From a virus: 49,718 bases of DNA. The notes below the pieces were generated by a model. The model was given only the letters and a program-made list of their open reading frames with translations. It ran no database searches and was not told the origin of the DNA. This document shows positions 33,367 to 49,718 of the stretch, piece by piece (position 1 is the first letter of the stretch; every line of letters begins with the position of its first letter). The DNA is taken from positions 1 through 49,718 of the IMG/VR virus record IMGVR_UViG_3300004461_000041; one strand, given 5' to 3'. The position numbers and the translations under genes were made by a program.

Positions 33367-33512
33367 TGATATTCCACCAAACCATCCAGTCGCTTTAGCA
33401 AAGTATTGCCTGCGTTTGCTACATTCATATCATTCGTATGCAACGCTATCTCGTTAATCACACGTACCGCGTCCATAACCAGTTTTGCTAATTCTATTTC
33501 TTTGTCAGTCAT
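33363..33512 (-). CDS. Small helical protein
   Basis: A 49-aa helical protein (MTDKEIELAKLVMDAVRVIN) coupled by ATGA at both ends. Unknown. Confidence 0.55.
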   Translation of the reverse strand: MTDKEIELAKLVMDAVRVINEIALHTNDMNVANAGNTLLKRLDGLVEYQ

Positions 33513-33760: not shown

Positions 33761-34022
33761 CTCCTAATTTCTTTGCTCTGAAAACCTTTCGGGTATACGC
33801 AGAACCAACCGTAACGCCCTTTCCCTTCTCATCGACTATGTCGAACCGACCATCTCCTTGCAAGAGTTTAGCAACTCCATTGGAGTGAGGGTGGAATTTG
33901 AATGGCTTGCCATTTTTACCTATGACTCTCTTTACGAGAGTGGAGGATGTCATGCCTTCGCCTGTCGCAAGTAGCATCTCGTAAGCGTTATCACGCCACA
34001 TTCTGAATTTCTTATTGGGCAT
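33744..34022 (-). CDS. Winged-helix (HARE-HTH-like) protein
   Basis: A 92-aa basic protein. KKFRMWRDNAYEMLLATGEG, then a TSSTLVKRVIG helix and GVAKLLQGDGRFDIVDEKG. Same architecture as 33103-33366 (M..K..R.WRD start and L...D.RF element). Adjacent to the MCM-like helicase; a possible regulator or helicase accessory. Confidence 0.6.
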   Translation of the reverse strand: MPNKKFRMWRDNAYEMLLATGEGMTSSTLVKRVIGKNGKPFKFHPHSNGVAKLLQGDGRFDIVDEKGKGVTVGSAYTRKVFRAKKLGDEKND

Positions 34023-35339: not shown

Positions 35340-36127
35340 TGGAACATACCGCCGCTATACGGTTCCTTCTTCGTCTTTGCCACCATCTTCGTTATCATCT
35401 CGTTCGCCATTTTCATCGCCTCCGATGCTTCCGATGAGGCTCTATCATATAATACTTTTGACCTTTCCTTAGCATTTTCTACATCGAAACCTAATTTCCC
35501 AATCTCATCAAGAGCATTCTCGATTGCAGTTTCTTCGTAGGGTCTCTGTACGTGCGAGGCTCCATGTGCAGGCATGAGTAATATATACGCACCCACCTCA
35601 TTTAGCGCAGTAAACATGAACGCAGGCAACCATCCCCATAGGGGCTGAATAGTCTCTGGCGCACCGACAGTACCGAGTTGCTCTCCATTTACTACTCTTA
35701 CCGACTCGGAAGGTTTCGCATCGAAAGCCGTACTCGATAGAGTTAGGAACTCTCCGACTCCTAAATCATAAAGACATTGAACGATGTCTCTCGCAGGCGG
35801 ATAGTTGAATAGCCATGCGTTCTTCTGCTCGCTCGGGTTTTCGCTTATATGTGCAGGAGTGAGAATCTCCACGATTAGAGTATCGTTCTTGCGATATACA
35901 GGCCAACCCGTAAACCCGACAGTTAGTATCGTGTGTGGGGATGACGCTACGTGCTTGCTTGAGATATACCCGATGGGCTTTTGTCCCTTCTCGATGAGGG
36001 ATGCGCCTACGACCGCAGGTAAATGGTCTGTGCCTACGCAGTCGTACAGGATAGCCTTCGTTATGTCAGTAGGTACTCCATCCATCCAGATGAAGTCAGT
36101 TTCGTTGATGGTTTTAATTTCGCCCAT
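35336..36127 (-). CDS. PAC2-like (proteasome assembly chaperone fold) protein
   Basis: A 263-aa protein. HLPAVVGASLIEKGQKPIGY, then SPHTILTVGFTGWPVYRK, LIVEILTPAHIS, and ARDIVQCLYDLGVGEFLTLS follow the strand order and motif spacing of the PAC2 superfamily. A C-terminal coiled coil follows (RASSEASEAMKMANEMITKM). Cellular members assist 20S proteasome assembly; a viral copy could target host proteolysis, or only share the fold. The ATG at 36127 is preferred to the GTG at 36136. ATGA overlap with the helicase gene. Confidence 0.55.
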   Translation of the reverse strand: MGEIKTINETDFIWMDGVPTDITKAILYDCVGTDHLPAVVGASLIEKGQKPIGYISSKHVASSPHTILTVGFTGWPVYRKNDTLIVEILTPAHISENPSEQKNAWLFNYPPARDIVQCLYDLGVGEFLTLSSTAFDAKPSESVRVVNGEQLGTVGAPETIQPLWGWLPAFMFTALNEVGAYILLMPAHGASHVQRPYEETAIENALDEIGKLGFDVENAKERSKVLYDRASSEASEAMKMANEMITKMVAKTKKEPYSGGMFQ

Positions 36128-36366
36128 GTTATACACAACACCTTATGTCCTTATGAATCCCTTTCTTTTTGACCGCCAAAAACAATTGAAAAATAAATAA
36201 ACGAGAGACTCAAAGCCAATCCCGCTTATTCTGTTTAATTTCATAAGAGTCAATTCCAATTTATTATACTAATACGGCAGTCGGCAATATATTTCTCCAT
36301 CTTAGGAAATAAGACAGAATAGTTTCAAATGTCTTGCAGTACAACACTTTTTAATTTCTCAATTAT
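36128..36366. promoter_or_regulatory. AT-rich intergenic region
   Basis: The longest gene-free stretch inside the minus-strand block apart from 47-48.6 kb. It is AT-rich (runs such as AATTGAAAAATAAATAAAC). It contains TAAGGAC at 36153-36147 on the minus strand with a degenerate TATA just upstream (GGGATTCAT), serving the PAC2-like gene. No ORF. A replication origin is possible but there are no clear iterons. Confidence 0.5.
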
Positions 36367-36975
36367 TTACAGGGCTTCTAAATAATTGCAATATTCGTAG
36401 TAATCTCTCTCATGGAAATTCATCCCACGCTTGTTGTTACCAGAGCGTTTTGATGGTTCCACCCACTTGCCCTCGACTAAATGACCCATACGTTCATACG
36501 CACGTCTTATGGCATCTTCTCTTTCTACGAATCTTTCCATAGGGAAAGGTCTGTAATCCACTTCTTCTCCTACGATAAACGAGGATACTACGTGCGAGAG
36601 TAATGATTGTGATAGGTGTACGACTGTGTATATGGGATGACTTTCGATAATAACGCAATCAGTAAGGACAATTTTGCTTTTGTCTCGCAGAGGCATCTGC
36701 TCATACGCAGCCCTTTTGCATCCTGTCTGTACGTATGCGTCTGCTATTGTGTGATAATCGTTAGGGATTTCAAAGACATCCGATTTTTCATATGAAAAAA
36801 TCAACTTCATAGCATCAGATTCTTCCAGAAAATTAGCAAGAACTTCTTTAAAATTTACTTTTAAATCTCCTTTCATCGCATGGTTTACAGTTTTTCTGTA
36901 CGTATTTGGGATTAGTTCATCTATGAACTCCCATACCTGCGAGTATCCGTCTAATACTACGTCATACTCACCCAC
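36367..36975 (-). CDS. Hypothetical protein, start uncertain
   Basis: A 202-aa protein if started at the GTG at 36975. The same frame stays open and coding-like upstream to about 37103 (IPAIRYLAEWIIAEPSDIS, then VDFICWRKVKGERRFQPYIH), but contains no ATG, GTG or TTG there. Either a rare start such as ATA is used or the true start was lost by an indel. Central part helical (LANFLEESDAMKLIFSYEK). Not recognised. Confidence 0.6.
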   Translation of the reverse strand: MGEYDVVLDGYSQVWEFIDELIPNTYRKTVNHAMKGDLKVNFKEVLANFLEESDAMKLIFSYEKSDVFEIPNDYHTIADAYVQTGCKRAAYEQMPLRDKSKIVLTDCVIIESHPIYTVVHLSQSLLSHVVSSFIVGEEVDYRPFPMERFVEREDAIRRAYERMGHLVEGKWVEPSKRSGNNKRGMNFHERDYYEYCNYLEAL

Positions 36976-37088
36976 TTGTAGGTGTATATATGGTTGGAAT
37001 CTACGCTCTCCCTTTACCTTTCTCCAACATATGAAGTCTACGACTGATATATCAGATGGTTCTGCGATTATCCACTCTGCGAGATACC

Positions 37089-37385
37089 TTATCGCTGGTA
37101 TGCGCTCAACCCCGATTTATTTTTCCTTGCTTTGGCAAGGAGGTCATCAGTAGTTTTGTTTCTCGTTTCGAGAACCATATCTTTCCAATCTTTAGCAGAA
37201 ACTATCTCTGATAGTGGTTTGTCTATTGTAGTGTAACTTCTTCGCACGAACTGTTCCGCTAAGGAACAGGGTTCGCAGATTGATGCTTGTGCAGGATGTC
37301 GTATGCTCTTAATCATGTTCTCTTCGAGTCCATCGAAGGATTGCTTTGCTCCGCAAATAGAACAGGTGTATGTAGGTTTTCCCAT
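37089..37385 (-). CDS. Zinc-ribbon protein
   Basis: A 98-aa protein: YTCSICGAKQSF and ICEPCSLAEQF give a four-Cys ribbon, followed by a basic helical tail (LLAKARKNKSG). The ATG at 37385 lies about 27 nt from a TATA-like TTTAAAA, so it probably starts a leaderless transcript. Confidence 0.65.
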   Translation of the reverse strand: MGKPTYTCSICGAKQSFDGLEENMIKSIRHPAQASICEPCSLAEQFVRRSYTTIDKPLSEIVSAKDWKDMVLETRNKTTDDLLAKARKNKSGLSAYQR

Positions 37386-37390
37386 GTTAC

Positions 37391-37981
37391 TCACACATCC
37401 TTACGTTCTTTTAAACCCTCTATCCACCAAGAAGGTGCGTCTACGCCTTTATCCCACTTAGCGAAGTGTGCTTTTTCTCGTAGGTAAAACTCACGATACG
37501 CTTCCACAGCCGTGTATTTGTCCTCGTCAAGTAAGTCCAAGTTGCGATTTTCAGATTGATTTAGGCATCGCATGAACGGAGTTCCTACTTGCTTATCTAA
37601 TCCATTTTCGCCAAGAACTGTAATTACAGGGATGTATTCACCCCATCTAAAAGCCCCCACCAGATGGTCAAGTTGTCCAAATGCGAAATGTTCTTTACCG
37701 TATCTTTTTTTGAATTGACGACAAAGTTCTTTGGTGTGATTAAAGAGCCACCAGAAGTTTCTGTGTGCTTCTGCCGCCCATTGAGTGCAGGGATGATTGA
37801 GGTATCCGCCTTTGTGAGGCTGTCCTCTCGTTGTGAGAGGCATATCTTCGGGAGGTGCGCCAGAGATTAGTAATGCTCCTACGAGCATCTGAACTCCTTC
37901 TACGCACATTTTACTTGAGTGTGAGTCGCAGACCATTTCTGCCGCAGTAACTGGATTTTCGTGCAATACAAATATGTTCAT
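37391..37981 (-). CDS. Conserved phage-type protein of unknown function
   Basis: A 196-aa protein. The N-terminus MNIFVLHENPVTAAEMVCDS, then HSSKMCVEGVQMLVGALL, followed by HPCTQWAAEAHRNFWWLFNH, is a signature I associate with a widespread family in T4-like and marine phages (MNIFVL..P..AA...CD.H..KM). His, Asp and Cys conserved in that pattern suggest a metal or catalytic site. Function is not known to me. Confidence 0.65.
   Translation of the reverse strand: MNIFVLHENPVTAAEMVCDSHSSKMCVEGVQMLVGALLISGAPPEDMPLTTRGQPHKGGYLNHPCTQWAAEAHRNFWWLFNHTKELCRQFKKRYGKEHFAFGQLDHLVGAFRWGEYIPVITVLGENGLDKQVGTPFMRCLNQSENRNLDLLDEDKYTAVEAYREFYLREKAHFAKWDKGVDAPSWWIEGLKERKDV
37397..37415 (-). promoter_or_regulatory. 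Promoter inside 3' end of gene 37391-37981
   Basis: Minus-strand TTTAAAAGAACGTAAGGAT: TATA-like box at 37415-37409 and TAAGGAT (one change from TAAGGAC) at 37403-37397, upstream of the ATG at 37385. It overlaps the last codons of the upstream gene. Confidence 0.6.
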
Positions 37982-38112
37982 TGTTTATCTCTCCCAATCA
38001 AAAACATTCTCGCTTCGATTGACTTAGTAATACAAGGCTCACATACTTTATATTTTCCAGAACGTAGTCCTCTGGATTCTGCATTTTCTTCTCTACACAT
38101 ATCGCACTTCAT
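37978..38112 (-). CDS. Small zinc-ribbon protein
   Basis: A 44-aa protein with CDMC at 3-6 and CEPC at 24-27. The ATG at 38112 is just after GGGGAG and overlaps the upstream stop, so a longer frame to 38163 is rejected. Confidence 0.6.
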   Translation of the reverse strand: MKCDMCREENAESRGLRSGKYKVCEPCITKSIEARMFLIGRDKQ

Positions 38113-38297
38113 CTCCCCATCATCCTCGATATACGTGTAGGTATGACTAATGTCGCATTGCAAGTATCACAACAACGACCATCAGCGACTGGCTGTGCAT
38201 TGTGTCCTTCTGCCCAATACACATCGCCATTGGCATCCCTACGCAAGTCAATCTTTTCTCCGCAGATATCGCAATCTTTCTGCTTCCAAATTTTCAT
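38109..38297 (-). CDS. Small zinc-finger protein
   Basis: A 62-aa protein: KDCDICGEKIDLRRDANGD, then EGHNAQPVADGRCCDTCN. The HN.xPV.DGrCC..CN motif is common in phage zinc proteins of unknown role. Confidence 0.65.
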   Translation of the reverse strand: MKIWKQKDCDICGEKIDLRRDANGDVYWAEGHNAQPVADGRCCDTCNATLVIPTRISRMMGR

Positions 38298-38524
38298 GCG
38301 CCCATCTCCTTCAAACGAGACATTGCTATTTCAAGTGATTCGAGTGCGTCCTCTGCGTATTCCATCGAGCGACTATATTCCATACTCGCATGATGCGATT
38401 CTTCGATGTCCAAACTACGACAGAGGTCATTGACCTCATCTATATCGCAAAGTAATCCACCCAGTCTATCGACTAAGTCTCTCAGTTCTTCTATTTTTAT
38501 TTGTATTTCTTTCGTTTCTATCAT
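38294..38524 (-). CDS. Coiled-coil hypothetical protein
   Basis: A 76-aa helical protein (IQIKIEELRDLVDRLGGLLC) with a second acidic helix (DALESLEIAMSRLKEM). ATGA overlaps. Unknown. Confidence 0.55.
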   Translation of the reverse strand: MIETKEIQIKIEELRDLVDRLGGLLCDIDEVNDLCRSLDIEESHHASMEYSRSMEYAEDALESLEIAMSRLKEMGA

Positions 38525-38769
38525 TCTATTTCGCCTCCGTTTTCTACTACGTCAAATTCAGCACACGCATCTGGATAATGCTCGTCTAAGAACTGGAAAA
38601 CTCGCAAGGACTTTCCTTGAAAGTGCTTTCTCTGGTTCTCTATTTGCGTAACTATGTTCTCAAGTCTGCATAACATATCGGGTATTAACTTCTCCGTTCG
38701 CCCACTCGCCAATGAGACATTATGTATCTCTTCTATCAATTTTCTTGCCGTGTCTATATTCAATATCAT
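38521..38769 (-). CDS. Helical hypothetical protein
   Basis: An 82-aa protein from the ATG at 38769, which follows AGGAGAGG closely; the in-frame ATG at 38805 would add 12 Arg-rich residues. Contains ARKLIEEIHNVSLASGR and a Cys (DMLCRLENI). Unknown. Confidence 0.5.
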   Translation of the reverse strand: MILNIDTARKLIEEIHNVSLASGRTEKLIPDMLCRLENIVTQIENQRKHFQGKSLRVFQFLDEHYPDACAEFDVVENGGEIE

Positions 38770-38812
38770 TCTTCTTCCTCTCCTTCTACTATCATCCATT
38801 GCCATTCGCTTT

Positions 38813-39034
38813 TCATTCTTCTTCCTCTCCGCTTGTTATTGCTCCTTCGCTTCCATCTCTGTATATGACTGCGGTTTCACCATTATCTAAGTACGACAGT
38901 ACATAAAATACGTTATCATCATTAGGCGTGAGCCACATACATCGAGCGATTCTTCCTTCGTCTGTGGTAAATGTGTGTGTAGATTCTATTGCATAGAACT
39001 TGCCTTCTATCTCCACCGTAGCAACTTCATTCAT
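38813..39034 (-). CDS. Small beta-rich hypothetical protein
   Basis: A 73-aa protein (VATVEIEGKFYAIESTHTFT) ending in GEEEE. Overlaps the upstream stop by 8 nt. Unknown. Confidence 0.55.
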   Translation of the reverse strand: MNEVATVEIEGKFYAIESTHTFTTDEGRIARCMWLTPNDDNVFYVLSYLDNGETAVIYRDGSEGAITSGEEEE

Positions 39035-39533
39035 AGAAAAGACTCCTTAGTTCGTTGTTTCTTCGCTCTTTTTGCGTTTGTTCTTTCATATCCTTGAACG
39101 TATCTAATCCGATAGCCAACTCTGGAGTTTGTAATATCTCCGATATTCTTTCCATAAACTGTACTCCGTAGATGTCTGGGTCTGCGATTTCTGTTTCATC
39201 GTACTCGTATTTCACGATTGCTCTGCCTCTAAGCATCTGGGCATTTGTGCCGTCGCCGTTTACTCCGCAAGCCATGACGGATGCTATTTCATTGGTTTCC
39301 AAGTTCATTAGCAAGCCTTCTTCATTTACAATGACCTCTAAGATGTTTCCTAATGTCATGTCGAAGTTGTCTGGTTCTGCGTTGCAATGCACCAAGAACT
39401 GCGCCCCTTCTGCGACTGGAGCATACTCGATGTACCCTTGAACCCATGATTGCTTCTCACCGAGAGTCGGTTCTTCCGTCTGCTTGAAAACGATTTTACC
39501 ATCGGTGTTTAAAAATGCGAATTCAGTTACCAT
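39027..39533 (-). CDS. DUF3846-like protein
   Basis: A 168-aa protein. VQGYIEYAPVAEGAQFLVHC, then NEEGLLMNLETNEIASVMAC, and a late RGRAIVKYEY strand follow the DUF3846 pattern (G.yIe...l..., vNEeGLl..l..N..A, i.G.aiv), often found near phage regulatory genes. The last about 50 residues are a helical extension. The ATG at 39533 overlaps the upstream stop (TGATG). Confidence 0.6.
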   Translation of the reverse strand: MVTEFAFLNTDGKIVFKQTEEPTLGEKQSWVQGYIEYAPVAEGAQFLVHCNAEPDNFDMTLGNILEVIVNEEGLLMNLETNEIASVMACGVNGDGTNAQMLRGRAIVKYEYDETEIADPDIYGVQFMERISEILQTPELAIGLDTFKDMKEQTQKERRNNELRSLFYE

Positions 39534-39730
39534 CACTCTTCCTCCTCATCTGTGTGTGCTTGTTCTACGTGTTTCATGTTGATGTTTGCGAGGTCAATCA
39601 GTTCTCCGATTAACGCCTCCATCCTGTCATGCCATTCTTCGGACATGACTACACCTGTCTGGGTGTTCATGTATTCGCTCGTCAGTTGTCTTTGTTCTTG
39701 CATCATTATGTCTAAGTAATCCATATTCAT
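39533..39730 (-). CDS. Small helical hypothetical protein
   Basis: A 65-aa protein (MNMDYLDIMMQEQRQLTSEY) with an acidic end. The ATG at 39730 overlaps the upstream stop and has GGAGG 2-6 nt before it, so the longer frame to 39757 is rejected. Confidence 0.55.
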   Translation of the reverse strand: MNMDYLDIMMQEQRQLTSEYMNTQTGVVMSEEWHDRMEALIGELIDLANINMKHVEQAHTDEEEE

Positions 39731-39996
39731 TCCTCCTCCCCACAGCAAACTTCGCAAGCAAATCCACTAAGGATTTCCTCACATTCATCGCACCAGAGGT
39801 AATCCTCTCGCAGGGAATCTAAGTATTCATCGAGAGCAATCTCGTACTGAATGGGGTCTACTTGCTTTAGCAATTCAGACATCGTGTATGTCGTGCCGAG
39901 AACATCTACGTCATTGTAACACTCATCTAACATCTGGTCGTAGATGTGGTAAATCTCGGGCTTGTATCTGTATGTGTATTTGTATTTCATGTTCAT
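39727..39996 (-). CDS. Hypothetical protein with C-terminal zinc ribbon
   Basis: An 89-aa protein: Tyr-rich N-terminus (MNMKYKYTYRYKPEIYHIYD), helical middle, then CDEC ... CEVCCGEEE. Coupled by ATGA at both ends. Confidence 0.6.
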   Translation of the reverse strand: MNMKYKYTYRYKPEIYHIYDQMLDECYNDVDVLGTTYTMSELLKQVDPIQYEIALDEYLDSLREDYLWCDECEEILSGFACEVCCGEEE

Positions 39997-40136
39997 TCCT
40001 CCACTTCAATCGGCTTCTTGTGATAGATTGTCTCGTTGATAGCGAGCAAGATAGCGTTACCTCGCTCGGCAGTCTCGACGTATTCGGCTGATAGTTCGTG
40101 TATGTATTCGAGTAATCCTTCTGGTGTCATATTCAT
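39993..40136 (-). CDS. Small helical hypothetical protein
   Basis: A 47-aa amphipathic helical protein (MTPEGLLEYIHELSAEYVET) with GGAGG upstream and ATGA overlaps on both sides. Unknown. Confidence 0.55.
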   Translation of the reverse strand: MNMTPEGLLEYIHELSAEYVETAERGNAILLAINETIYHKKPIEVEE

Positions 40137-40798
40137 TCCTCCCCTTCGTCCCATCCGAATGGGTCATCGTTGTTGTCATCCGAGTCTGGGTCTATGTCAT
40201 CCGAGATGTCTGTCGTCATCTTGCCTTCGGCCTTAGCCTCTATGACGGCATCCTTTAGCAAATCTGCGACATCGTCCATACTTCCTACGGCTTGCTTCTC
40301 CAACATCATGTCGCCCATTCTTTCCTGTACTCGGTTTATGTATGACCTTACTGCGGGTTGCAGTAGATGTGCGGGAACTGCTAATCCATCTTCGGACTGC
40401 TCGACATTATCGCAAGTTTGCTTTATGACTAAAGTCATGTATTTGTACTGCATATGCGCCCTACGCTGTTCGATGTCTTTGGGAGTCTCCCAATCGCCCA
40501 CTTCTGCGCCATCGAAGTCAGACGGAGAGAACTCGATATCGCAATCATGGATAACTCTTACTGCTTCGGAGAAGAATATAATGTCATGCACATCTACCTT
40601 GTGATTGTGTGCAATCTTAAGTGCTTGCGAGTGTAGTCTTTGTAGGTTCAACGTCGCTTTCTGGGAAAGTCTATCTGGGAAAGCAGGACTTCCATCTTCC
40701 AACACGAACCCGTAGTCTGGGTGCGCTATTATTCTTTGCTCGTACACGGAATGTCTGTAAAACATCACTACATCATCAATCGTTTCTAAATTCATCAT
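40133..40798 (-). CDS. Hypothetical protein with acidic tail
   Basis: A 221-aa protein starting MMNLETIDDVVMFYRHSVYE; helical core (IEQRRAHMQYKYMTLVIKQT) and an Asp-rich tail (DISDDIDPDSDDNNDD). Such tails mimic DNA or bind basic partners. A TATA-like TATAAT about 21 nt upstream of the ATG suggests its own promoter. Not recognised. Confidence 0.6.
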   Translation of the reverse strand: MMNLETIDDVVMFYRHSVYEQRIIAHPDYGFVLEDGSPAFPDRLSQKATLNLQRLHSQALKIAHNHKVDVHDIIFFSEAVRVIHDCDIEFSPSDFDGAEVGDWETPKDIEQRRAHMQYKYMTLVIKQTCDNVEQSEDGLAVPAHLLQPAVRSYINRVQERMGDMMLEKQAVGSMDDVADLLKDAVIEAKAEGKMTTDISDDIDPDSDDNNDDPFGWDEGEE

Positions 40799-40836
40799 CG
40801 TTCTCAACTCGGTTCATTATAGGGGGTTTTGGTATA

Positions 40837-41379
40837 TCAATCTTCTCCGTACTTAGACTTCTTCAACTTGGCTATGGCCTTCTGTACGTCTCTGTCCTTG
40901 AGTATGCCTGCGTCCAACCACTCTTGCAGTTGCGACTGTATGTCCACAGTCCATCTGAATTTTGAACGCAAGGAATGTGTGCTAAAAATTAAATCTTCGT
41001 AAACGAACAACGTATCTTCGTTCCAGCCATTTACTTTTGCGGTATGTTTTCGTATGATTTTCAAAGCACCGACTGACATACTTCTTCCGTAGTGCTTGAC
41101 CATATGACAGCGAGGACATAGGGATTGTACGCCTGTGAGTGTTTGCGTCATTGTGTTATCGTTATACTCCCATGACTCATGGCATTCGACTGCGTGTTTG
41201 CGACCTTGATTCAGACCAGAGTCTCCACAAATCTCGCAACAGTTGTTTGCCAGTTCGTATCTCCACTTACGTAGTCTGTCCCATCCAGACGGAGGCAACA
41301 ATGCTCGCAGATTTGCGCCCCATGTGCCTGTGGGTATGAGTTCTGCTTGCAGAACTGCTTCATTCTTCTTGCGACTCAT
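40837..41379 (-). CDS. HNH endonuclease
   Basis: A 180-aa protein. CCEICGDSG, HAVECHESWEYN, then SLCPRCHMVKHYGRS form a zinc-stabilised beta-beta-alpha HNH site (His-Glu in VECHE, Cys pairs on each side). A Trp-rich N-terminus precedes it (SGWDRLRKWRYELANN). Could be a homing-type, packaging or defence nuclease; free-standing here. The ATG at 41379 is chosen over 41397. Confidence 0.85.
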   Translation of the reverse strand: MSRKKNEAVLQAELIPTGTWGANLRALLPPSGWDRLRKWRYELANNCCEICGDSGLNQGRKHAVECHESWEYNDNTMTQTLTGVQSLCPRCHMVKHYGRSMSVGALKIIRKHTAKVNGWNEDTLFVYEDLIFSTHSLRSKFRWTVDIQSQLQEWLDAGILKDRDVQKAIAKLKKSKYGED

Positions 41380-41431
41380 CTTCCTCACACTCCTCAAATA
41401 CTTCTTGAATGGCTTTTACAAAGCCTCTCAT
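41360..41431 (-). CDS. Possible mini-protein before HNH gene
   Basis: A 23-aa acidic frame (MRGFVKAIQEVFEECEEDES) with GGAGG upstream and ATGA overlap with the previous stop; it overlaps the HNH start by 20 nt. It may only couple translation. Confidence 0.35.
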   Translation of the reverse strand: MRGFVKAIQEVFEECEEDESQEE

Positions 41432-41859
41432 AGATATTCCTCCAGAGCATCAGCGACTTGTGTCTTGATGTCTTGCTTGTCCAAGACATTTTCTGGATTT
41501 GCATTGCGACCAATTCCATACATGAGTGTTCTGCGAGGCTCTATCTTCGGCTTTCTCTTCGGTACGAAGTGAGACTTAAGTCTCTTAGGTGGAAGGAACA
41601 ACTTCGGTGAAGCCGCAGCAGTTTTCATAAAGACGGGTACGTGGTTGTTGGTACATCTATACGAACCGACACCGACCAATTCCATATCACTTACGCAAAG
41701 TGGGCAGATGCCTGCTTGCGTCTTGATGCCTTCTGGCATGGGAACCATGTATTCTACATGGGATTTGAACGGAGTCCATGCGAGGACATGAATCCAACTA
41801 TCGTTGTCGATGACTCGAATCTGTTTCGCAACATATCCTTCGGGCAAGGCTCGACTCAT
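41428..41859 (-). CDS. Hypothetical protein with zinc ribbon
   Basis: A 143-aa protein. After a beta-rich start (HVLAWTPFKSHVEYMVPM) comes CPLC ... YRCTNNH, a zinc site, and then a basic region (LFLPPKRLKSHFVPKRKPKI). The ATG at 41859 overlaps the upstream stop; the longer frame to 41934 is rejected. Confidence 0.6.
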   Translation of the reverse strand: MSRALPEGYVAKQIRVIDNDSWIHVLAWTPFKSHVEYMVPMPEGIKTQAGICPLCVSDMELVGVGSYRCTNNHVPVFMKTAAASPKLFLPPKRLKSHFVPKRKPKIEPRRTLMYGIGRNANPENVLDKQDIKTQVADALEEYL

Positions 41860-42113
41860 TCTGTTCGCCCCCTCTCCATAGCGAAGAGAATAGCGAAGTA
41901 CATGACGTTGATTCTGTCGCAGAGTCGTATCCATTCGGGAGTTTTGTATTGCTCCGTCATTCCATGCTTATCGTAGAAACGGGACATCTCATCACGTATA
42001 GCGACCTCATTTGCATACGTGTTTATCAAGACTGGTGCTTCCCATGAGTCTGGATGACCTACATGGTTTCCTTCGGAATCAGTCCACAATTTCAGTTGTT
42101 CGGGCATACTCAT
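41856..42113 (-). CDS. Hypothetical protein
   Basis: An 85-aa protein from the ATG at 42113 (MSMPEQLKLWTDSEGNHVGH), helical C-terminal half (CDRINVMYFAILFAMERGR). ATGA coupled. Unknown. Confidence 0.55.
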   Translation of the reverse strand: MSMPEQLKLWTDSEGNHVGHPDSWEAPVLINTYANEVAIRDEMSRFYDKHGMTEQYKTPEWIRLCDRINVMYFAILFAMERGRTE

Positions 42114-42346
42114 TCTATCACCTCTATTGCTACATGGTAGCAATTGTTAGCCATTTGCCATACACAATGCTCATCCATACAGAACAACTCGCCGTAGGCA
42201 TCCTCCTTCAACTCGTCTACATTTAAGATGTGGGTGTTGCAATATTGACATCGAAGATATTCGATTTCTTCGTCAGTCTCATATTCTCCGTCATATATCG
42301 TTCCTGTTACTACGTACTTCGTTTTATTTTCTTCTGTCATGCTCAT
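42110..42346 (-). CDS. Small zinc-binding protein
   Basis: A 78-aa protein with CQYCNTHI and FCMDEHCVW, giving three or four Cys plus His. Beta-rich N-terminus (KYVVTGTIYDGEYETDEE). ATGA coupled. Confidence 0.6.
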   Translation of the reverse strand: MSMTEENKTKYVVTGTIYDGEYETDEEIEYLRCQYCNTHILNVDELKEDAYGELFCMDEHCVWQMANNCYHVAIEVIE

Positions 42347-42777
42347 TCCTCCACTAAGTCGCCCATTGCTTCACGCATGAGGGACTTGATTTGCGATTTA
42401 CTCATCACCTTGCTCTTATCGACATCGGTTGAACGCTGTCTTACAGGCATAGGTGGGAGATTGGTTGGTGCAGATGCAGTCGATTTCCAACGTGTAGAGG
42501 AGCGTCTGGAGCGACTTCCGACTGAGTGGTTACGGCGACTACGTCGTTCTGGACTTCGGTTGCGATTTTTGTAGAGGCTGATTCGCTCCCAGAGGGACTT
42601 ACGCTCCTTCTCGCTGTATGGGGGAATCTCTGTGAGATTGATGTCCTCATCTGTGCCGCCTCTTACGAGTCGCACTACTTTTTCGTCGTGGTCTTTAAAG
42701 ACCATACAGACAGAGTCTGTATTGTTGCTCATGTTTCTTACTCGGATAAATCCGACGCATTCCATATTTGGTTTCAT
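42343..42777 (-). CDS. SR-rich basic-linker protein
   Basis: A 144-aa protein: a folded N-terminal part (MECVGFIRVRNMSNN), then an Arg/Ser-rich tract at about 72-98 (RNRSPERRSRRNHSVGSRSR), then a C-terminal helix (VMSKSQIKSLMREAMGDLV). RS repeats resemble eukaryotic SR linkers and viral nucleocapsid RNA-binding linkers. Nucleic-acid binding is likely; function unknown. Confidence 0.6.
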   Translation of the reverse strand: MKPNMECVGFIRVRNMSNNTDSVCMVFKDHDEKVVRLVRGGTDEDINLTEIPPYSEKERKSLWERISLYKNRNRSPERRSRRNHSVGSRSRRSSTRWKSTASAPTNLPPMPVRQRSTDVDKSKVMSKSQIKSLMREAMGDLVEE

Positions 42778-42920
42778 TGTATCACTTCCATTTGTGCATT
42801 TTCACACGCCTTGCATAGGCAGTCTATGTCGAATCTGAATTCGTTGTCATCGTAGATGTAAATATAATTTCCATAGGCGCAGTCATCGACTGTCATAATT
42901 CTGGTGGCTCGTTCAATCAT
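42774..42920 (-). CDS. Small Cys-rich protein
   Basis: A 48-aa protein: strands with NYIYIYDDNEF, then DCLCKACENA and an earlier DDCAYG, a possible zinc site. ATGA overlap with the SR-rich gene. Confidence 0.55.
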   Translation of the reverse strand: MIERATRIMTVDDCAYGNYIYIYDDNEFRFDIDCLCKACENAQMEVIQ

Positions 42921-43083
42921 TGTTCTCACCTTCTAATAGGGGTCGAGGGTATTTATAGTCATCGTCGTTTTTCATGTTGTCTCTTCGCACACGCTCTATC
43001 TGTTGGTGTGCAAGTACCATGAGTGCGTCGAACGCAAACATACATAGCACGATTGCGAGTACATAGGCTACGAATGTTATCAT
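42913..43083 (-). CDS. Small membrane protein
   Basis: A 56-aa protein: one N-terminal membrane helix (MITFVAYVLAIVLCMFAFDA) and a charged C-terminus, so N-anchored. The ATG at 43083 overlaps the upstream stop. Unknown. Confidence 0.6.
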   Translation of the reverse strand: MITFVAYVLAIVLCMFAFDALMVLAHQQIERVRRDNMKNDDDYKYPRPLLEGENND

Positions 43084-43205
43084 CGCAACCACTCCTGTGG
43101 TGCGCCTTCTGCACAAGCCATGCAACAAACACCTTCTTTAGAAGGTGAAAGGGCCGTTTCTTCGTCATCGAGCATCAGTTTCTTACAAATTTCGCAAACT
43201 CTCAT
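43080..43205 (-). CDS. Tiny zinc-ribbon protein
   Basis: A 41-aa protein with CEIC at 4-7 and CCMAC at 27-31. ATGA overlaps on both sides. DNA for residues about 19-25 carries a perfect 8-bp hairpin (43130-43147). Confidence 0.6.
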   Translation of the reverse strand: MRVCEICKKLMLDDEETALSPSKEGVCCMACAEGAPQEWLR

Positions 43206-43489
43206 TGTGATTCCTCCTCTTCGAGGATGCTTTCCATAACCTCGATGTCTTGTTTCATCATCAAGATGATGGTGCGAATTTCTTCTAACGTGAATCCATC
43301 ATAATCATGCGTGAACGATTCTTTGTAGTGTAAGTTGAATGTACCATCCTCTTTACGAGGATGCTTCATAGTCGGTATGGTATTCGTAGGAATACCAATC
43401 CATGAGTCTATCGCCCATCGTCCAATCTTTTGGTATGCTGTTCTTCTGTGTATGTGTTTCTTCATGTTGTTTATGTACTCGTCTGTCAT
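43202..43489 (-). CDS. Hypothetical protein
   Basis: A 95-aa protein: basic N-terminus (NNMKKHIHRRTAYQKIGRW), then a helix (LEEIRTIILMMKQDIEVMES) and an acidic end. Coupled by TAATG. Unknown. Confidence 0.55.
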   Translation of the reverse strand: MTDEYINNMKKHIHRRTAYQKIGRWAIDSWIGIPTNTIPTMKHPRKEDGTFNLHYKESFTHDYDGFTLEEIRTIILMMKQDIEVMESILEEEESQ

Positions 43490-44052
43490 TAAAATGCCTC
43501 CTTTAGGGGATAGTGTATTGATTGCATCGGGGTCGCTGTAACGAGACCGTCCGAATCTTCGGAGAAGATAAAGAAATTTTTAGGATTACTGGCTCGCACC
43601 TGCTCCTCCGAGAAGTGCTTATGCCAGTATCTCTCTGCATGGTCGCCCACTTGAGGGAAATAATCGTTCAAGTCAGGCCACCATCTGTCTCTACGTGTGT
43701 ATTTCGCAGGGTTGGCCTCTGGTACTGCTATTACCCACATATGCGAGTCTCCGTTTCCCGCCCAGTTGTGTTTTTCGCAAGAGCCGAAGTAAATTGTACC
43801 ATCAATAGATGAGGTTAGTGGTTTTAGTAGATGTAACTTATCTCCTACACATCTCGGACAACGTGAAGCAGGTAGGTTGTAATGACGCACCTTCGACTTG
43901 AGTTTCTCATCCCAAGTCTCCATTTTGCCTCTATGAACCATAGGTTCACCATGAAAATAAACGGACTTTTCCATCTCGTACTCGCCTTCTCGCAACTGCA
44001 TGATTTCCTGTGGGATTCGAGAGTCATCGTAGGTTTGGTATGTACCAGTCAT
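43489..44052 (-). CDS. Hypothetical protein with zinc site
   Basis: A 187-aa protein. ASRCPRCVGDKLHLL and GSCEKHNWAGNGDSHMWV give Cys-Cys and Cys-His pairs. The rest is Trp/Tyr-rich (RRDRWWPDLNDYFPQ). Not recognised. Confidence 0.6.
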   Translation of the reverse strand: MTGTYQTYDDSRIPQEIMQLREGEYEMEKSVYFHGEPMVHRGKMETWDEKLKSKVRHYNLPASRCPRCVGDKLHLLKPLTSSIDGTIYFGSCEKHNWAGNGDSHMWVIAVPEANPAKYTRRDRWWPDLNDYFPQVGDHAERYWHKHFSEEQVRASNPKNFFIFSEDSDGLVTATPMQSIHYPLKEAF

Positions 44053-44273
44053 TCTTCCACCCCCAAAACTTGTTTTGGGTCTAACTCGATTGTCAATTCC
44101 GTAGGCATGGAGTCATGTAGTGCAAGGAACTGTTGGATGACTTTGTCAATCATCTCATGTTGCTCTTGGTCGTTCATGTCCTTCGGATTCGGTGCGAGAA
44201 TAACGAAAATTTCGACTTGCTTTTCTCTGGTTTCTGCTTTGATATTCCATATCACTTCTTGTTTCATTGGCAT
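44049..44273 (-). CDS. Small hypothetical protein
   Basis: A 74-aa protein (MPMKQEVIWNIKAETREKQV) with alternating strands and helices and an acidic end. Overlaps both neighbours. The DNA has a perfect 8-bp hairpin near its 3' end (44062-44079). Confidence 0.55.
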   Translation of the reverse strand: MPMKQEVIWNIKAETREKQVEIFVILAPNPKDMNDQEQHEMIDKVIQQFLALHDSMPTELTIELDPKQVLGVEE

Positions 44274-44419
44274 TCCTCCATTCGCATATCTTCCTTTAGG
44301 AAGAGGTCTGTTCTGATTTTGTTGTTTCGCAAGTCTGACTTCGTGTGGTCATAGTCGATATTATCGAGCATTCTCCACGTTCTGTTGCCTGTCTTTGTTT
44401 TCCTGTATGTTTTTCCCAT
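44264..44419 (-). CDS. Small basic hypothetical protein
   Basis: A 51-aa protein (MGKTYRKTKTGNRTWRMLDN) from the ATG at 44419, just after the CobT-like stop. Basic N-terminus, acidic C-terminus. Unknown. Confidence 0.55.
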   Translation of the reverse strand: MGKTYRKTKTGNRTWRMLDNIDYDHTKSDLRNNKIRTDLFLKEDMRMEECQ

Positions 44420-44424
44420 ATGTA

Positions 44425-45351
44425 TCACTCCTCTGTCGCTTGTGTCCATGCTGTTATTGCTTGAATGACATCTTCGATGCCATCCTTGATTGCTTGTTCG
44501 ACTGTTCCAGATGTGGCCTTTCGCATTACGTGTGCCTTGTCAAGACCGATGACGTTGCAAACATCAGCACCTTCGGTTGGATTCAAGTCTCTCGCAGAGC
44601 CTAAGTGTGATGCTGCATCGCCGTGAGTAGCCCACATTGCAAACATTCCACTTCGGAAGAACCACGAAGAACCTCCAGATGCTGCGATAGCCTCGTTAAG
44701 AGGCTCGTCGCCTGCTTTGAGTTGTACTGCTGCTATGCAGTTTTTAGTGCCGTTTACGGCAGTTCGGAGACATCCATCGGAGTAGGCATAAGCCCAGACT
44801 TCGACTGTAAAACCTGCTTCAGAAAGAATTTCTGATGCTGCGAGGGCAACTGCTGTTTTTGCGAATAGGATTTCTGGCTTGATGTTGCAATTACCCATAG
44901 TGGGGATGACGAGTGCGACTGCTTCGACTGGAGCCGATGACTTACGAATAGTCCTACGGAAGGTCGAATCGCCGTTTAGCAAGCGAGTTGCATTAACACG
45001 TCCTCGACTGTCTGACCACTTGAGACGACGCTTGAATTCTGATACGTCGATAGAATCGACGAGGTCGGACATTCGCTTTGAAGCGTTTGCGATTTGCTTA
45101 TGGTCATCTTCGACGTAGTCGCCAAGTAGTGCTGCTCCTTCCAGATTGGTAAGTTTCTTACCGCCTAAGTCCTTGCGACCTGCCCATTTTGTGTCCCACC
45201 TTTCGGTGGCAGGGTTCCATCCCTTGAAGTCTGTTCTCTTAAGAGAAGCCAAGTAATCGCTGACTGCTTGAGGCGAGTGAGCGACTGTGAAGTGAGCATG
45301 AAGCCCATTGTTGTGAGGAGACTTGTAAGTGCCTTTGTCTATTCCGTACAT
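44425..45351 (-). CDS. CobT-like VWA-type protein
   Basis: A 308-aa protein directly downstream of a CobS-like ATPase. FKRRLKWSDSRGRVNATRLL, then PVEAVALVIPTMGNCNIKPE, ILFAKTAVALAASEILSEAG and FTVEVWAYAYSDG match the phage CobT/VWA pattern, with a strand, a degenerate MIDAS-like loop (PTMGNC), a helix and a strand. Such pairs are metal-chelatase-like machines of unknown role in viruses. The C-terminus carries an Asp/Asn-rich helix pair. Confidence 0.65.
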   Translation of the reverse strand: MYGIDKGTYKSPHNNGLHAHFTVAHSPQAVSDYLASLKRTDFKGWNPATERWDTKWAGRKDLGGKKLTNLEGAALLGDYVEDDHKQIANASKRMSDLVDSIDVSEFKRRLKWSDSRGRVNATRLLNGDSTFRRTIRKSSAPVEAVALVIPTMGNCNIKPEILFAKTAVALAASEILSEAGFTVEVWAYAYSDGCLRTAVNGTKNCIAAVQLKAGDEPLNEAIAASGGSSWFFRSGMFAMWATHGDAASHLGSARDLNPTEGADVCNVIGLDKAHVMRKATSGTVEQAIKDGIEDVIQAITAWTQATEE

Positions 45352-45388: not shown

Positions 45389-46774
45389 TCAAGCCGCCCC
45401 ACCATTGGAAATGGTTCCGTCGATGAATGTCTTGTCGTAACCTATGGTTCGCAAGTCCTTCTCGTTCCAATCAGCAAGTGAAACTTGGCGAATCTTTTCC
45501 ATGTTCCACTTGAGGATGTGCTTCTGCTTCCAAGCAGTCTGCATATGTCGAGGGCTGATGATTCGACCAACTAAGTTGGCTTCGGTGGCTTTGCGACGAA
45601 CTTCATGGAAGAAGTTGGTAATTTCATCATCAGAGATGAGTTGGCGTTCAAAGGCCATGTCGTAACCCCAATGGAGGATACCTCCAGCGAATCGGTTGAG
45701 AGTAGCACCGTCAAGAACTTCTGCGGCTGAGTAGGGGCCACGTCCCTTGCCTTGCCCAAGAGTATTTGCTGTGCAAAGAATAAACAAATCTGGAGAACGG
45801 TTGATAACCGTACCGTCTGGCATACTCCAAGTCTCGTTGGCTAAAGCCATGTTCGCTGCAACTGCTGTGCCCCCCATGAGTCTGTCGAATTCGTCAAAGA
45901 CGAGAACTCCGCCATCACGGTATGTCTTGACTGCTTCGGTAACTCTGTGGTTCTCTGAACCATCAGATACATTGGGTATCATCGGACCGACTATGTCGGA
46001 AGGCATCATTTCGTTGTGGCAAGAAACAATAGTGAAACGTACCGTTTCAGGAGTTGCGAATCCACCAACTTCCTTCGGAAGGGCTTTGAGGGTATCAAAG
46101 ACCTGCTTTGCAGCGAATGTTTTGCCACTTCCCGCAGGTCCGACTGCAAGGGAATTAGTACGAATTTGTCCCATCTCAAGGAGATGGTCAAAGGCAGGAT
46201 GGGAGAGTCCGACTTCGACCTCTGGTGTATCACCGATTGGCTTAATGACCAAAGGTCGAGGAATCGCAAGTTGAGACAATCCATCGGAGATGGAAGCATC
46301 GACGTGTTCAGCGACCATCTCGATGAGATGGGGAGCGATAAGTCCTGCAAGGACTCCGCCTTCTGCTGTCTTTTCTCCAACGGAGAAAGTAGGAGCAGGC
46401 TTCTTCTTAGGAACCTTTGGTTCTGCTTTCTTCTCCGAAGGAGGAGGAGTAGGCTTCTTCTTCTCCGAAGGAGGAGGAGTGTCGCCGTCAGTACCTAAGA
46501 AAAGTATCTTTTCTTTGTCGGTTAGGTTTCTTTGGATGACTACGTCAGTTTCTGGGTTAGCATCGAGGTGAATTTGCACACAATCGCTGTGTATCCAGAC
46601 ATTTTTGCGAGAACCGCCAAAGCGGTTTTTGACTGCAACGACAGCAGATTTCGGGGCTTTGCCACGAATTTCTTCGCCACAAACCTTACAGGTTGAGTCA
46701 AAGTTGGCATTCTTGGTGGCTAAGCCAATTCGGCGTAGGGCTTGGTTCTTCGGTGTTTGTTTCGACATATTCAT
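45389..46774 (-). CDS. CobS/MoxR-like AAA+ ATPase
   Basis: A 461-aa ATPase. An N-terminal zinc finger (CKVCGEEIRGKAPKS ... WIHSDC) is followed by a Pro/Lys linker at about 95-130 containing two PPPSEKK repeats. Then Walker A GPAGSGKTF (about 211-219), Walker B GGVLVFDEFDRL (about 286-293), sensor 1 FILCTANTLGQG and a C-terminal helical lid. The family remodels proteins together with a VWA partner, here the downstream CobT-like gene. ATGA overlap with the upstream gene. Confidence 0.88.
   Translation of the reverse strand: MNMSKQTPKNQALRRIGLATKNANFDSTCKVCGEEIRGKAPKSAVVAVKNRFGGSRKNVWIHSDCVQIHLDANPETDVVIQRNLTDKEKILFLGTDGDTPPPSEKKKPTPPPSEKKAEPKVPKKKPAPTFSVGEKTAEGGVLAGLIAPHLIEMVAEHVDASISDGLSQLAIPRPLVIKPIGDTPEVEVGLSHPAFDHLLEMGQIRTNSLAVGPAGSGKTFAAKQVFDTLKALPKEVGGFATPETVRFTIVSCHNEMMPSDIVGPMIPNVSDGSENHRVTEAVKTYRDGGVLVFDEFDRLMGGTAVAANMALANETWSMPDGTVINRSPDLFILCTANTLGQGKGRGPYSAAEVLDGATLNRFAGGILHWGYDMAFERQLISDDEITNFFHEVRRKATEANLVGRIISPRHMQTAWKQKHILKWNMEKIRQVSLADWNEKDLRTIGYDKTFIDGTISNGGAA
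46428..46480. repeat. 23-bp direct repeat in CobS-like linker
   Basis: Two copies of a 23-bp unit (46428-46450 and 46458-46480), offset by 30 bp, encode the repeated PPPSEKK linker. An in-frame tandem duplication is the simplest origin. Confidence 0.75.
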
Positions 46775-47037
46775 TCATCTCCTTTGGTGGTTCGGTCTAT
46801 CCCTTCCGATGGGGTTCGTGTATTTATACATTGCTGAGTGAGGTAATCCAAATCGGCAAAAGAAGCATCGCTTCTTGCTGCTTTCAGTACATTTCGTAGT
46901 GCAAGAGTAACAACTTCTGTTGGTACTCCAAAACCTTCCAACAGTCCGATGGACTGGAGGACGACTCGGTTTTCGACAAAGCCGATACTACGTGTGTGTA
47001 GTATAGTACAATTGTTGTTTATAGTATTAGTAATCAT
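46771..47037 (-). CDS. Hypothetical protein, first gene of CobS/T operon
   Basis: An 88-aa protein from the ATG at 47037 (MITNTINNNCTILHTRSIGF). A helical core, LEGFGVPTEVVTLALRNVLK, resembles a HEPN- or HTH-like small domain but is not recognised. The open frame continues upstream to 47433, but those residues are the translation of the hairpin region and are rejected as coding. Ends by ATGA overlap with the ATPase. Confidence 0.55.
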   Translation of the reverse strand: MITNTINNNCTILHTRSIGFVENRVVLQSIGLLEGFGVPTEVVTLALRNVLKAARSDASFADLDYLTQQCINTRTPSEGIDRTTKGDE

Positions 47038-47076
47038 GGTATATTCCCTCTTCATCAAAGATGAGAGGGATATACC
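47038..47076 (-). promoter_or_regulatory. Long hairpin directly before start codon
   Basis: Inverted repeat abutting the ATG at 47037: arms GGTATATTCCCTCTTCATC and GATGAGAGGGATATACC around AAA, 17 pairs with two single-base bulges. In the mRNA it would hide the ribosome binding region; in DNA it could be an operator. Confidence 0.65.
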
Positions 47077-47590
47077 TATATGATTACATACTAACACATT
47101 ATTCCCGAAGGGAATAAACTTTAGCAAATCTATGAATAGGGATTTAGTAATCCTATTCATAGATTCCTGTACGTATGTACTTGCGAGTTTAATTTTCCCA
47201 AATTTCATTCCCCTATGGGGAATGGCACTTGCGATAGTTTCATAACCATCTCCCTTTAAAAGGGAGTCATGCGAGTGTAAAGGTTCGAGAACTCTCTGAT
47301 TTCTGCTTGCAGAAATCTCAGTTCCCTTCTTGAAGGGAACTTGGCGTAGCGGGACTCTTTGAGGGCAGGGGCATGGGCTTCTCTTTTTTGACTGGTGAAG
47401 CCCCCAATCAAGGGAGGAAGATGGGCGATTCATTCATGCTCCTCCGTTGGTGTGTGTAATGGGCAAAGGTGTAAGACTAATCCAATGCAATTCCGAAGGT
47501 TCGGCATTGATGGGTTCTTGCAATTCCTGTATTCGCATATGTGAGGTGTGTTCCTAATCATGTATATCTAAAGTCGATATATTTCAAAAT

Positions 47591-47625
47591 TCGGAGTTTT
47601 CTCGGAGTGGCTCGGAGTTTTCTCG
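47591..47625. repeat. 14-bp direct repeat
   Basis: TCGGAGTTTTCTCG at 47591-47604 and 47612-47625, offset 21 bp (two helical turns), which suits side-by-side binding of a protein dimer. Confidence 0.75.
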
Positions 47626-47979
47626 TAAAATAGAAGATTTATCATTGGTTATTTGAAATGATAAATCAACGTGCGTGTGGCTGATGCGATTCCATCACAC
47701 GAACACCTGCACGATGACCCCAAAGGGGTTCCATAGAGAGTCGGTTTACTTTTTGCACCACCTTTTTTTGATGTCTCTCGTCGATTTCTCAGCCACCGAA
47801 TCGCAACAGTAGACCCCAATACTACTAATCAAATTGACCAAGAGAGATACAAAATCTATGATTTTGATATATCTCTTGAATTGAAAACGATGGACTTGCG
47901 AGCATACGTTAAATTCTTTTGAGAATTTTTCCTGATTTAGAGAATAGTATTCACTAATACTATTCCCGAAATCCACACA

Positions 47980-48240
47980 CCTGCGTGAGCCTGCCTGCAT
48001 CTGCGAGCGTGTGCCTGCACATCCGAGCCTGCGAGTGGGCGTACCTGCGAGTGTGTGTGTATGTGTGTGCGAGTGCGTGGGCAGGCGTGTAGGTGTATGT
48101 ACCTACACCTGCGAGTACGTACCTGCGTATGTACCTACATATACATACATACGTCAAAATCTCGGAGAGATTTTCGCAGATTTTGGAAAAGGAATTAGAG
48201 AATCCTTTTCCTAAAATTACACCTGCGAGGGTATCCCTAC
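47980..48240. repeat. CTGCGAG / ACCTRC low-complexity tract
   Basis: Degenerate repeats of CCTGCGAG, GTGTGTGT and GTACCTAC, including a GTGTAGGT/ACCTACAC inverted pair. ORFs on both strands here translate only to repetitive Cys/Val/Thr strings and are not genes. Possible origin or packaging signal, unproven. Confidence 0.6.
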
Positions 48241-48420
48241 ACCTACCTCCCCGTATGCGCTCATACACCCCCGCTTGCGAGAGCCTACACATAGGCTCCC
48301 GGATTTTCCTTGAACTCGTTCAACGGAAAATGGTAAAAAAACTTAGAGTTTTTTTATGCGCTTAATAGAGGAGTTGAAGTCGAGACTTCAACTCTTCACG
48401 CTATCTTTGACATAGTCAAT

Positions 48421-48487: not shown

Positions 48488-48521
48488 AAAAAAAAGGCCA
48501 ACGGAGTCCTTTAGGACTCCG
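48488..48521 (-). terminator. Intrinsic terminator of the last gene
   Basis: Read on the minus strand: a 9-bp GC-rich stem (CGGAGTCCT / AGGACTCCG, 48521-48502) followed within a few bases by eight T (48495-48488). It lies about 80 nt after the stop of the gene at 48604, the form of a rho-independent or archaeal U-tract terminator. Confidence 0.75.
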
Positions 48522-48585: not shown

Positions 48586-49694
48586 CAATCTTCGATTGTT
48601 TCCTCAATAAGGGAATTTTTCTTCCAACTCGATTTTCAAATCGAGAGGTAAGTCGCATGAATCCTCTTCGAGGATATTATTCAAGACCTTCGGAATCACA
48701 GATTCCGCCATTTGTCTTGATAATAGGATATTATCATCGTTTTTTCCACCAAAGCAAACTGAAAGTTTGGTTACAAAGTAACCATGACAGTAGTTGATAG
48801 CCTCTTCGAGGCTGGTTTTAGTTACCAATTCCTCCATCAAGATGGAGAATAGTTTTTCATTGACCAATTCAACTCCGTTGAATGTCGGTGAAATTCCTTC
48901 ACGCACGAAATCTCTTGAGAATACAAATCCTTTCAACTCGTTGAAAGTCTGACCATTCAACCACCCTTTTAGGGTGTCCATAGACCGAAGGTCTCGAATG
49001 ACTTCGTCATACCAGTTCTGGAGTTCTTCGATGTTCAAGAACATCGGTTCGTCATCTTCTGGATGACCGAAGGTCAAGAGATAAGATGCATCTCTGATGC
49101 ATCTTGACCAATTGTGGTCGTCATATTTTAAAATATGACGGAGAAGTTGTTCAGATAACAACGAAGTTGTTTGGAGTCGAGTTTCCAATTCTACAACAAG
49201 TTGTAGTGGTATTCCTCTTAGTTGATTGGCAAGCCAATCATCTTTTGCCATGATTCTTGCTAATTTATTAGCAACCTTTGACCTTCGGTCAAGGACGGTC
49301 TTGACATCGTCAAGATACAAAGCAAGAGTTCTCTTGCTAAATTCGACTTCGTCGTTTCGCAAATCTTTATCGAAATCTTCGATTTCCCATTCTTCTTCTG
49401 TAAGAAGAACGTCGATGTCATCGGAGATGGCATCCCAAGAACTGAAAATGTTGTAACTAATCTCTTTTAAGAGATTAGGATTTTCAATCCTTCCAAGTCT
49501 CTGATAAAGGATGCTTGCATCCTTTGTTTCAAGACTATATTCTATTTGCTCTGCAAAACCACTTAGGTTTCCTCCAGATGCCGTCTTTAGACGGCTTAAT
49601 CCGATAACTAAGTTATCGAACCCTCGTTCTTCGTTTTCAATTTTCAATTGTTCGTTTTCCATATTTATTCCTCCTTTTTCAAATTTTCAATTTG
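48586..49694. repeat. Dense array of about 35 distinct short hairpins
   Basis: Perfect inverted repeats, mostly 5-11 bp with 2-5 nt loops, about every 30 nt. Examples: 48628-48645, 48661-48675, 48691-48707, 48719-48735, 48769-48783, 48799-48813, 48832-48847, 48867-48883, 48930-48947, 48962-48976, 49029-49046, 49083-49105 (10 bp), 49119-49140 (22-nt palindrome), 49191-49206, 49223-49240, 49257-49274, 49299-49315, 49321-49338, 49390-49409, 49457-49478 (10 bp, TT loop), 49506-49525 (9 bp), 49580-49595, 49602-49618, 49680-49694. Arms differ from one to the next; loops are often TTC, TT, AA or GAA. Confidence 0.9.
48604..49662 (-). CDS. Hypothetical helical protein encoded by hairpin-dense DNA
   Basis: A 352-aa protein, mostly helical and acidic, with no family I recognise. 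Segments: RGFDNLVIGLSRLKTASGGN, KLARIMAKDDWLANQLRGI, SLLSEQLLRHILKYDDHNWS, FSILMEELVTKTSLEEAINY. The start is well supported: AAGGAGGA lies 7 nt before the ATG, and a terminator follows. No membrane helix, signal peptide or zinc site. Its DNA is packed with inverted repeats along its whole length, so the sequence serves two purposes or has an unusual mutational history. Confidence 0.75.
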   Translation of the reverse strand: MENEQLKIENEERGFDNLVIGLSRLKTASGGNLSGFAEQIEYSLETKDASILYQRLGRIENPNLLKEISYNIFSSWDAISDDIDVLLTEEEWEIEDFDKDLRNDEVEFSKRTLALYLDDVKTVLDRRSKVANKLARIMAKDDWLANQLRGIPLQLVVELETRLQTTSLLSEQLLRHILKYDDHNWSRCIRDASYLLTFGHPEDDEPMFLNIEELQNWYDEVIRDLRSMDTLKGWLNGQTFNELKGFVFSRDFVREGISPTFNGVELVNEKLFSILMEELVTKTSLEEAINYCHGYFVTKLSVCFGGKNDDNILLSRQMAESVIPKVLNNILEEDSCDLPLDLKIELEEKFPY

Positions 49695-49718
49695 AATATA
49701 ACCTCAATAGTCCTCTTC
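49663..49718 (-). other. Leader of last gene and window edge
   Basis: Contains the RBS (AAGGAGGA) and a CAAATT/AATTTG hairpin with a TTC loop. The outer bases could encode the end of another minus-strand gene (EEDY then stop at 49706-49704), but the edge is too close to decide. Confidence 0.4.

Follow-up and report, generated by a model that had tools for sequence, protein, structure and literature searches.

A hairpin array in a 352-codon gene

The window, i.e. the whole 49,718-nt stretch of viral DNA analysed here (IMG/VR record IMGVR_UViG_3300004461_000041), carries an intact 352-codon frame at 48604..49662 on the minus strand, the first of the early (minus-strand) gene set. AAGGAGG, a good ribosome-binding site, is located upstream of its ATG, and a likely terminator composed of the hairpin CGGAGTCCTAAAGGACTCCG and a T-run lies downstream (48502..48521, minus strand). 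The frame and ribosome-binding site of the original prediction, and probably its terminator, were borne out, the gene being read from 49662 to 48604. No homologue of its protein was detected in viral contigs, phages, PHROGs or Pfam. A profile of the array-borne proteins of eight relatives did not reach it either, and its predicted structure (pLDDT 39) was useless and gave no fold match.

This gene had been described as carrying about 35 densely packed hairpins. We counted 33 perfect ones within 48604-49662 (arm of at least 6 nt, loop of at most 6 nt), a density of which shuffles preserving both protein and codon usage, a control proposed at the outset, fell far short (4.5 ± 1.9, maximum 11, n = 200; z 14.7). 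With loops limited to 5 nt, the interval 48586-49694 also contains 33 perfect hairpins (arm of at least 6 nt), the longest arm being 11 nt, as compared to 2.0 (maximum 8, n = 300) in dinucleotide shuffles, and 41% of its bases lie within arms. Long arms closed by short loops had been expected to be rare in random sequence. Indeed, 12 hairpins with arms of at least 8 nt and loops of at most 3 nt were observed in this interval vs 0.13 in the dinucleotide shuffles (maximum 2, n = 300).

The array spans 48628..49696, with many hairpin centres about 34 nt apart, for example in a run at 389-612 of the gene. Of the perfect palindromes in this gene, the longest is CGTCATATTTTAAAATATGACG (49119..49140, arm 11), which is also its own reverse match. 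Other members are AAGATGCATC-TCT-GATGCATCTT (49083..49105, arm 10, loop 3) and ATCCTC-TTC-GAGGAT (48661..48675), which belongs to the C-TTC-G / C-GAA-G loop class. No stem sequence common to the hairpins of this gene was found, stems differing from one hairpin to the next.

Extent of the hairpin zone

The array had been presented as a property of one gene. It is real, but the zone reaches well past this gene and characterises a clade of viruses. The 352-codon gene constitutes its dense end, from which hairpin density declines through the early genes for about 15-20 kb (31, 12, 12, 11.5, 6.5, 5.3, 9.2, 5.9, 5.3 and 4.4 hairpins per kb along the minus-strand early genes, then on to 1-2). Two small early genes of 110 and 220 codons, which occupy 46771..48292 (minus strand) together with gaps, carry 12 hairpins per kb. 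The AAA ATPase gene (45389..46774, minus strand) follows with 11.5 (z 8.6) and a DUF7192-type gene (44425..45351, minus strand) with 6.5 (z 3.2). In the decaying tail (32000..44424, minus strand) density falls from about 5-9 per kb to background. It stays mostly at 4-9 per kb down to about 36 kb and is 1-3 per kb in PolB and in the structural genes, for which only occasional repeats had been noted; the earlier figure of about 3 per kb for the minus-strand stretch near 34-35 kb was also right. Over most of the early genes GC skew lies between -0.1 and -0.2; it approaches about zero towards the zone, as expected if each strand holds its own complement.

A 24-nt palindrome, GAATAGTATT(N4)AATACTATTC, is located at 47942..47965. 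It is conserved in several viruses (also at L008 9167, L011 427 and L012 8840, with conserved flanks), its loop being inverted between two of them, and could be an operator or origin element. Further AT-rich palindromes of 24-28 nt resembling it occur in the gaps.

The zone in related viruses

Relatives were found in IMG/VR, first with the nearby AAA gene and afterwards with the terminase. They are tailed viruses that encode a family B polymerase; a clamp-loader gene is present in the window. Since the best matches of the PolB in the phage collection include haloarchaeal tailed viruses, together with T4-like cyanophages, the host may be archaeal; none was found in GTDB contigs.

The hairpin-bearing group consists of marine tailed viruses in which the zone lies just behind the DNA-packaging (terminase) gene. 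In 11 of the 13 viruses checked, the first long hairpin occurs 1-60 nt past the terminase stop codon, and in the other two at about 750 nt. Downstream of the terminase, these 13 viruses show about 21 hairpins per kb for 3 kb, then 18, 13, 9, 9, 6 and 5, while the terminase gene itself and the stretch upstream are at background density. In whole contigs of the strong clade, each genome displays a single peak, which has one sharp edge and tails off over a long distance. Weaker, more distant hairpin-plus viruses have a second, smaller peak apart from the terminase-linked one (contigs of L057, L060, L062 and L088; G014-G016 and G020). Despite equally similar terminases, hairpins are absent at the same place in L030, L032, L041-43, L048, L052, L054 and L095. 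In the terminase tree this hairpin-minus group is nested within hairpin-plus lineages, so that the trait must have been lost at least once or gained several times. Where one virus had been assembled independently, the sequences agree at 99.8-100%.

No gene was found that is present in all hairpin-plus and missing from all hairpin-minus viruses. The window contains two DNA methyltransferase genes, at 18557-19366 and 23804-24598. The latter, of N6/N4 type, comes nearest within a single clade, of which eight hairpin-plus viruses carry it, but it also occurs in one minus virus and was rejected as the cause of the trait. So was the Mre11/SbcD-like nuclease, which is found in plus and minus viruses alike and whose gene lies directly upstream of the terminase (L012:2048-3277); enzymes of this kind cut hairpins in other systems.

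Several other features were observed along these contigs. A terminator-like element, made up of a 14-bp hairpin and then a run of some 10-12 T, lies about 520-720 nt past the terminase stop in L017, L021, L026 and L027, with a stem that varies among them and a constant T-run. The TTTAGGGCAACCTAAA hairpin was found again in many of the contigs. In L004 (2340-2960), the non-coding part of the zone includes GC-rich low-complexity stretches (GCGCTCGCGCCTACG...), and L004 and L005 differ in length there.

Spacing and conserved positions

For lack of a close relative of the window, evolutionary tests were made on its family. In nine array-bearing genes, neighbouring centres were 30-37 nt apart in 85 cases, compared with 36.9 ± 5.5 under random placement, and linkers of 15-20 nt were 2.8 times too frequent. 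The main array-borne genes of eight relatives, the window's not among them, encode homologous proteins of a fast and mosaic family (predicted structure mediocre, with pLDDT 68 and pTM 0.44, and no fold match). Between pairs of these genes (38-49%, about 45%, amino-acid and about 57% nucleotide identity), 83 of the 208 aligned hairpins were centred at most 1 nt from a hairpin in the other gene, as against 15.6 expected, often with wholly unlike stems. A comparison of homologues had been called for, and it shows that relatives retain hairpin positions while stems turn over.

Loop sequences and strand symmetry

Loop statistics were obtained on 1,088 distinct hairpins family-wide, hairpins found in hairpin-minus genomes serving as control. 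The closing pair is 5'-pyrimidine/3'-purine in 83% of cases (48% in the control), and 206 of 487 triloops are c(GNA)g or its complement (control, 1 of 65). Each loop is about as frequent as its complement: CGAAG 49 and CTTCG 47, CTACG 32 and CGTAG 26, CTCCG 25 and CGGAG 21, TAAA 61 and TTTA 52, CTTG 30 and CAAG 26. The C-TTC-G / C-GAA-G loops pointed out originally are the two commonest triloops of the family. On the sense strand triloops have no direction (GNA 143, TNC 154). Mismatches within arms are equally rare for G.T (8) and A.C (6), without wobble preference. In many of the viruses, hairpins are at least as dense in coding sequence as in the gaps. Within coding sequence, 204 of 326 triloops coincide with one codon, and in this phase much of the pairing can fall to third positions. 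From the strand-symmetric loops, the equal rarity of G.T and A.C and the c(GNA)g rule, the hairpin signal lies at the DNA level.

These data bear on two readings of the array. Early transcripts could have been selected as hairpin-rich RNA while also coding. The concerted arm changes described below are compatible with this, and the sense RNA of the window gene folds far below codon shuffles (z -8.8), as one of the original proposals would have it. However, the antisense strand folds just as strongly (z -9.9), the loops are strand-symmetric, and loops of 2 and 3 nt prevail instead of GNRA or UUCG tetraloops. Moreover, G.T is not in excess of A.C in the arms, although template switching could also explain the missing G.U, which makes an additional role of the RNA conceivable. 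Among curated RNA families, Rfam gave only a sub-threshold mir-297 match at 48053-48149. A structured RNA as the primary cause is thus not sustained, and we consider this reading improbable.

The hairpins could otherwise serve for the entry of an injected virion RNA polymerase, as in phage N4. Small N4 hairpins are reported to require a C-G closing pair and a loop with 5'G and 3'A for extrusion and stability from supercoiled DNA (PMC4496689). The loop rule here is the same, and the zone is likewise located at the start of the early region. Yet in N4 a dedicated polymerase serves three early promoters, whose stems are conserved and oriented (PMC4496689), whereas here dozens of copies per genome carry unrelated, hypervariable stems in either orientation (143 to 154), and no such polymerase was found. 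A 2391-aa protein encoded after the tape-measure gene (9222-16397) had neither a family nor a polymerase match in profile-level searches of PHROGs and Pfam; it is present in almost all longer relatives, hairpin-minus viruses included. A promoter role of this type is therefore very unlikely.

Changes of hairpins between relatives

Among aligned hairpins we observed nine exact loop inversions, seven with unchanged arms and two with concerted arm changes. Examples are GAATAAGGATT-CAAC/GTTG-AATCCTTATTC, GAATAGTATT-CAGT/ACTG-AATACTATTC (identical arms) and CCCCCT-TT/AA-AGGGGG. All loops in which every letter had changed and the arms were intact proved to be inversions (3/3 for 2-nt loops and 2/2 for 4-nt loops). 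Base pairs altered on both sides yet still complementary numbered 67, compared with 9-13 in registers slid by 1-3 nt. In one 98.7%-identical stretch both arms were replaced together (CTATGTGGACATC-GAA-GATGTCCACATAG vs CTATACCCCCTATC-GAA-GATAGGGGGTATAG), and no donor sequence for the new arms was found elsewhere in that genome. One arm was rewritten in 18 hairpins, the left one in 6 and the right one in 12, counts not polarised with an outgroup and in which no strand polarity was found. Divergence is 0.106 in loops, 0.066 in flanks and 0.040 in arms, which thus change at 0.6 of the flank rate; at third codon positions it is 0.067 in arms and 0.153 outside. As many as 196 of 587 hairpins are imperfect in the sister.

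In L088/L090, about 500-530 nt past the terminase, the loop of TTTAGG-GCGA-CCTAAA and a downstream TCGC shift jointly to CAAC and CTTGC, as if the two paired with each other.

Maintenance of the array

The in-place loop inversions, joint arm changes and single-arm rewriting point to polymerase template switching at the hairpins. Yeast genes and rRNA offer documented template-switch events of the same types (PMC8604942, PMC8794818), and in yeast the mutations that perfect quasi-palindromes depend on transcription and fork direction (PMC3820800). A self-perpetuating array of DNA hairpins kept perfect by this process is the best single account of our data, and we give it slightly better than an even chance. 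The zone would repeatedly be single-stranded or strongly negatively supercoiled, a state that would start at a fixed point near the terminase gene, possibly a replication start, a genome end or an early promoter. Hairpins would then fold on either strand within the zone. At a folded hairpin, the polymerase would copy one arm from the other, or cross to the other strand and back. Template switching would in this way keep hairpins perfect, and a hairpin, once formed, would perpetuate itself in place as the sequence drifts, with the coding constraint capping arm length and selecting the reading phase. Extrusion in single-stranded intermediates had been among the original proposals. Hairpins in a single-stranded or supercoiled intermediate are supported indirectly by c(GNA)g loops that are symmetric between strands and by the abrupt boundary at the terminase gene, such a state being itself what we infer.

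Perfecting of quasi-palindromes by a polymerase had likewise been proposed. It is supported by the inverted loops, by arms that changed in concert and by arms rewritten singly, but it does not account for the restriction to one zone and predicts neither the pitch of about 34 nt nor the slower divergence of the arms. The wholesale replacement of both arms also counts against template switching, since a new arm must come from somewhere and no donor was found. For positions to be kept over saturated divergence, with slow arms, template switching must be frequent enough, or the hairpins must also be selected, or both. The slow divergence of the arms and the even spacing suggest that the hairpins are, in addition, selected as DNA structures. 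We therefore think that they are probably under some selection as well; a function of the array is something we infer.

Alternatively, selection rather than mutation could maintain a functional array that acts as DNA close to where the early region starts, for example one that takes up negative supercoils, holds ssDNA protein-coated or aids entry or replication, template switching being only one source of the changes. Such an array would explain the regular spacing, the positions kept at about 45% amino-acid identity (83/208 vs 15.6) with stems that are often unrelated, the reduced arm divergence (0.6 of that of the flanks; 0.067 vs 0.153 at third positions), loops following the extrusion rule of the N4 promoters and inheritance of the trait by a clade. 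Against it, loops inverted exactly and stems replaced in a single step look like products of mutation, the 196/587 hairpins imperfect in the sister imply that selection on any single one is weak, and no binding protein or function was recognised. We regard this as a serious possibility, at clearly less than even odds. A similarly tentative rating applies to the proposal of a new class of DNA element. Its members would be regularly pitched, extrudable mini-hairpins, dozens per genome, spread over coding and non-coding sequence, selected for structure and not for sequence, anchored at the terminase end and acting on incoming or replicating viral DNA. Chance, composition or an assembly artefact, for which only the metagenomic origin of the record speaks, deserves practically no credence. 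It is already refuted by the shuffle controls and the agreement of independent assemblies (99.8-100%), as well as by the intact frames and by a zone found in many distinct viruses and in none of the sisters.

Relation to known systems

The array occurs in protein genes where a constraint or process at the level of DNA structure shows as clearly as the protein code. The array provides hundreds of natural replicates of template switching in one place, including loop inversions and concerted arm changes. With it, one can test whether hairpins at such density represent a mutational trap or a DNA structure with a function, and whether the state that early viral DNA passes through is single-stranded or supercoiled.

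Dispersed palindromic repeats such as REP, Rickettsia palindromic elements and MITE-like hairpins also comprise many small palindromes, some of them within genes, with one sequence per family; here, in contrast, stems differ from hairpin to hairpin. Template-switch (quasi-palindrome) mutation in yeast genes, rRNA hairpins and microRNAs shares with the array the inversion of spacers, the homogenisation of arms, the rewriting of one arm, short loops and occurrence inside coding genes (PMC8604942, PMC8794818, PMC3820800). Those events are rare and scattered, whereas here about 20 hairpins per kb saturate one zone and are regular, position-conserved and clade-specific. We found no comparable array in the open-access literature, where the mutation mechanism and the loop rule are described, and regional, regular, position-conserved hairpin arrays appear to be undescribed. 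In a survey of 118,019 genomes, viral and cellular, that also counted perfect inverted repeats, those of viruses were densest in intergenic regions (PMC13155455). In many of the viruses studied here, coding sequence is as dense or denser, and only one zone is affected.
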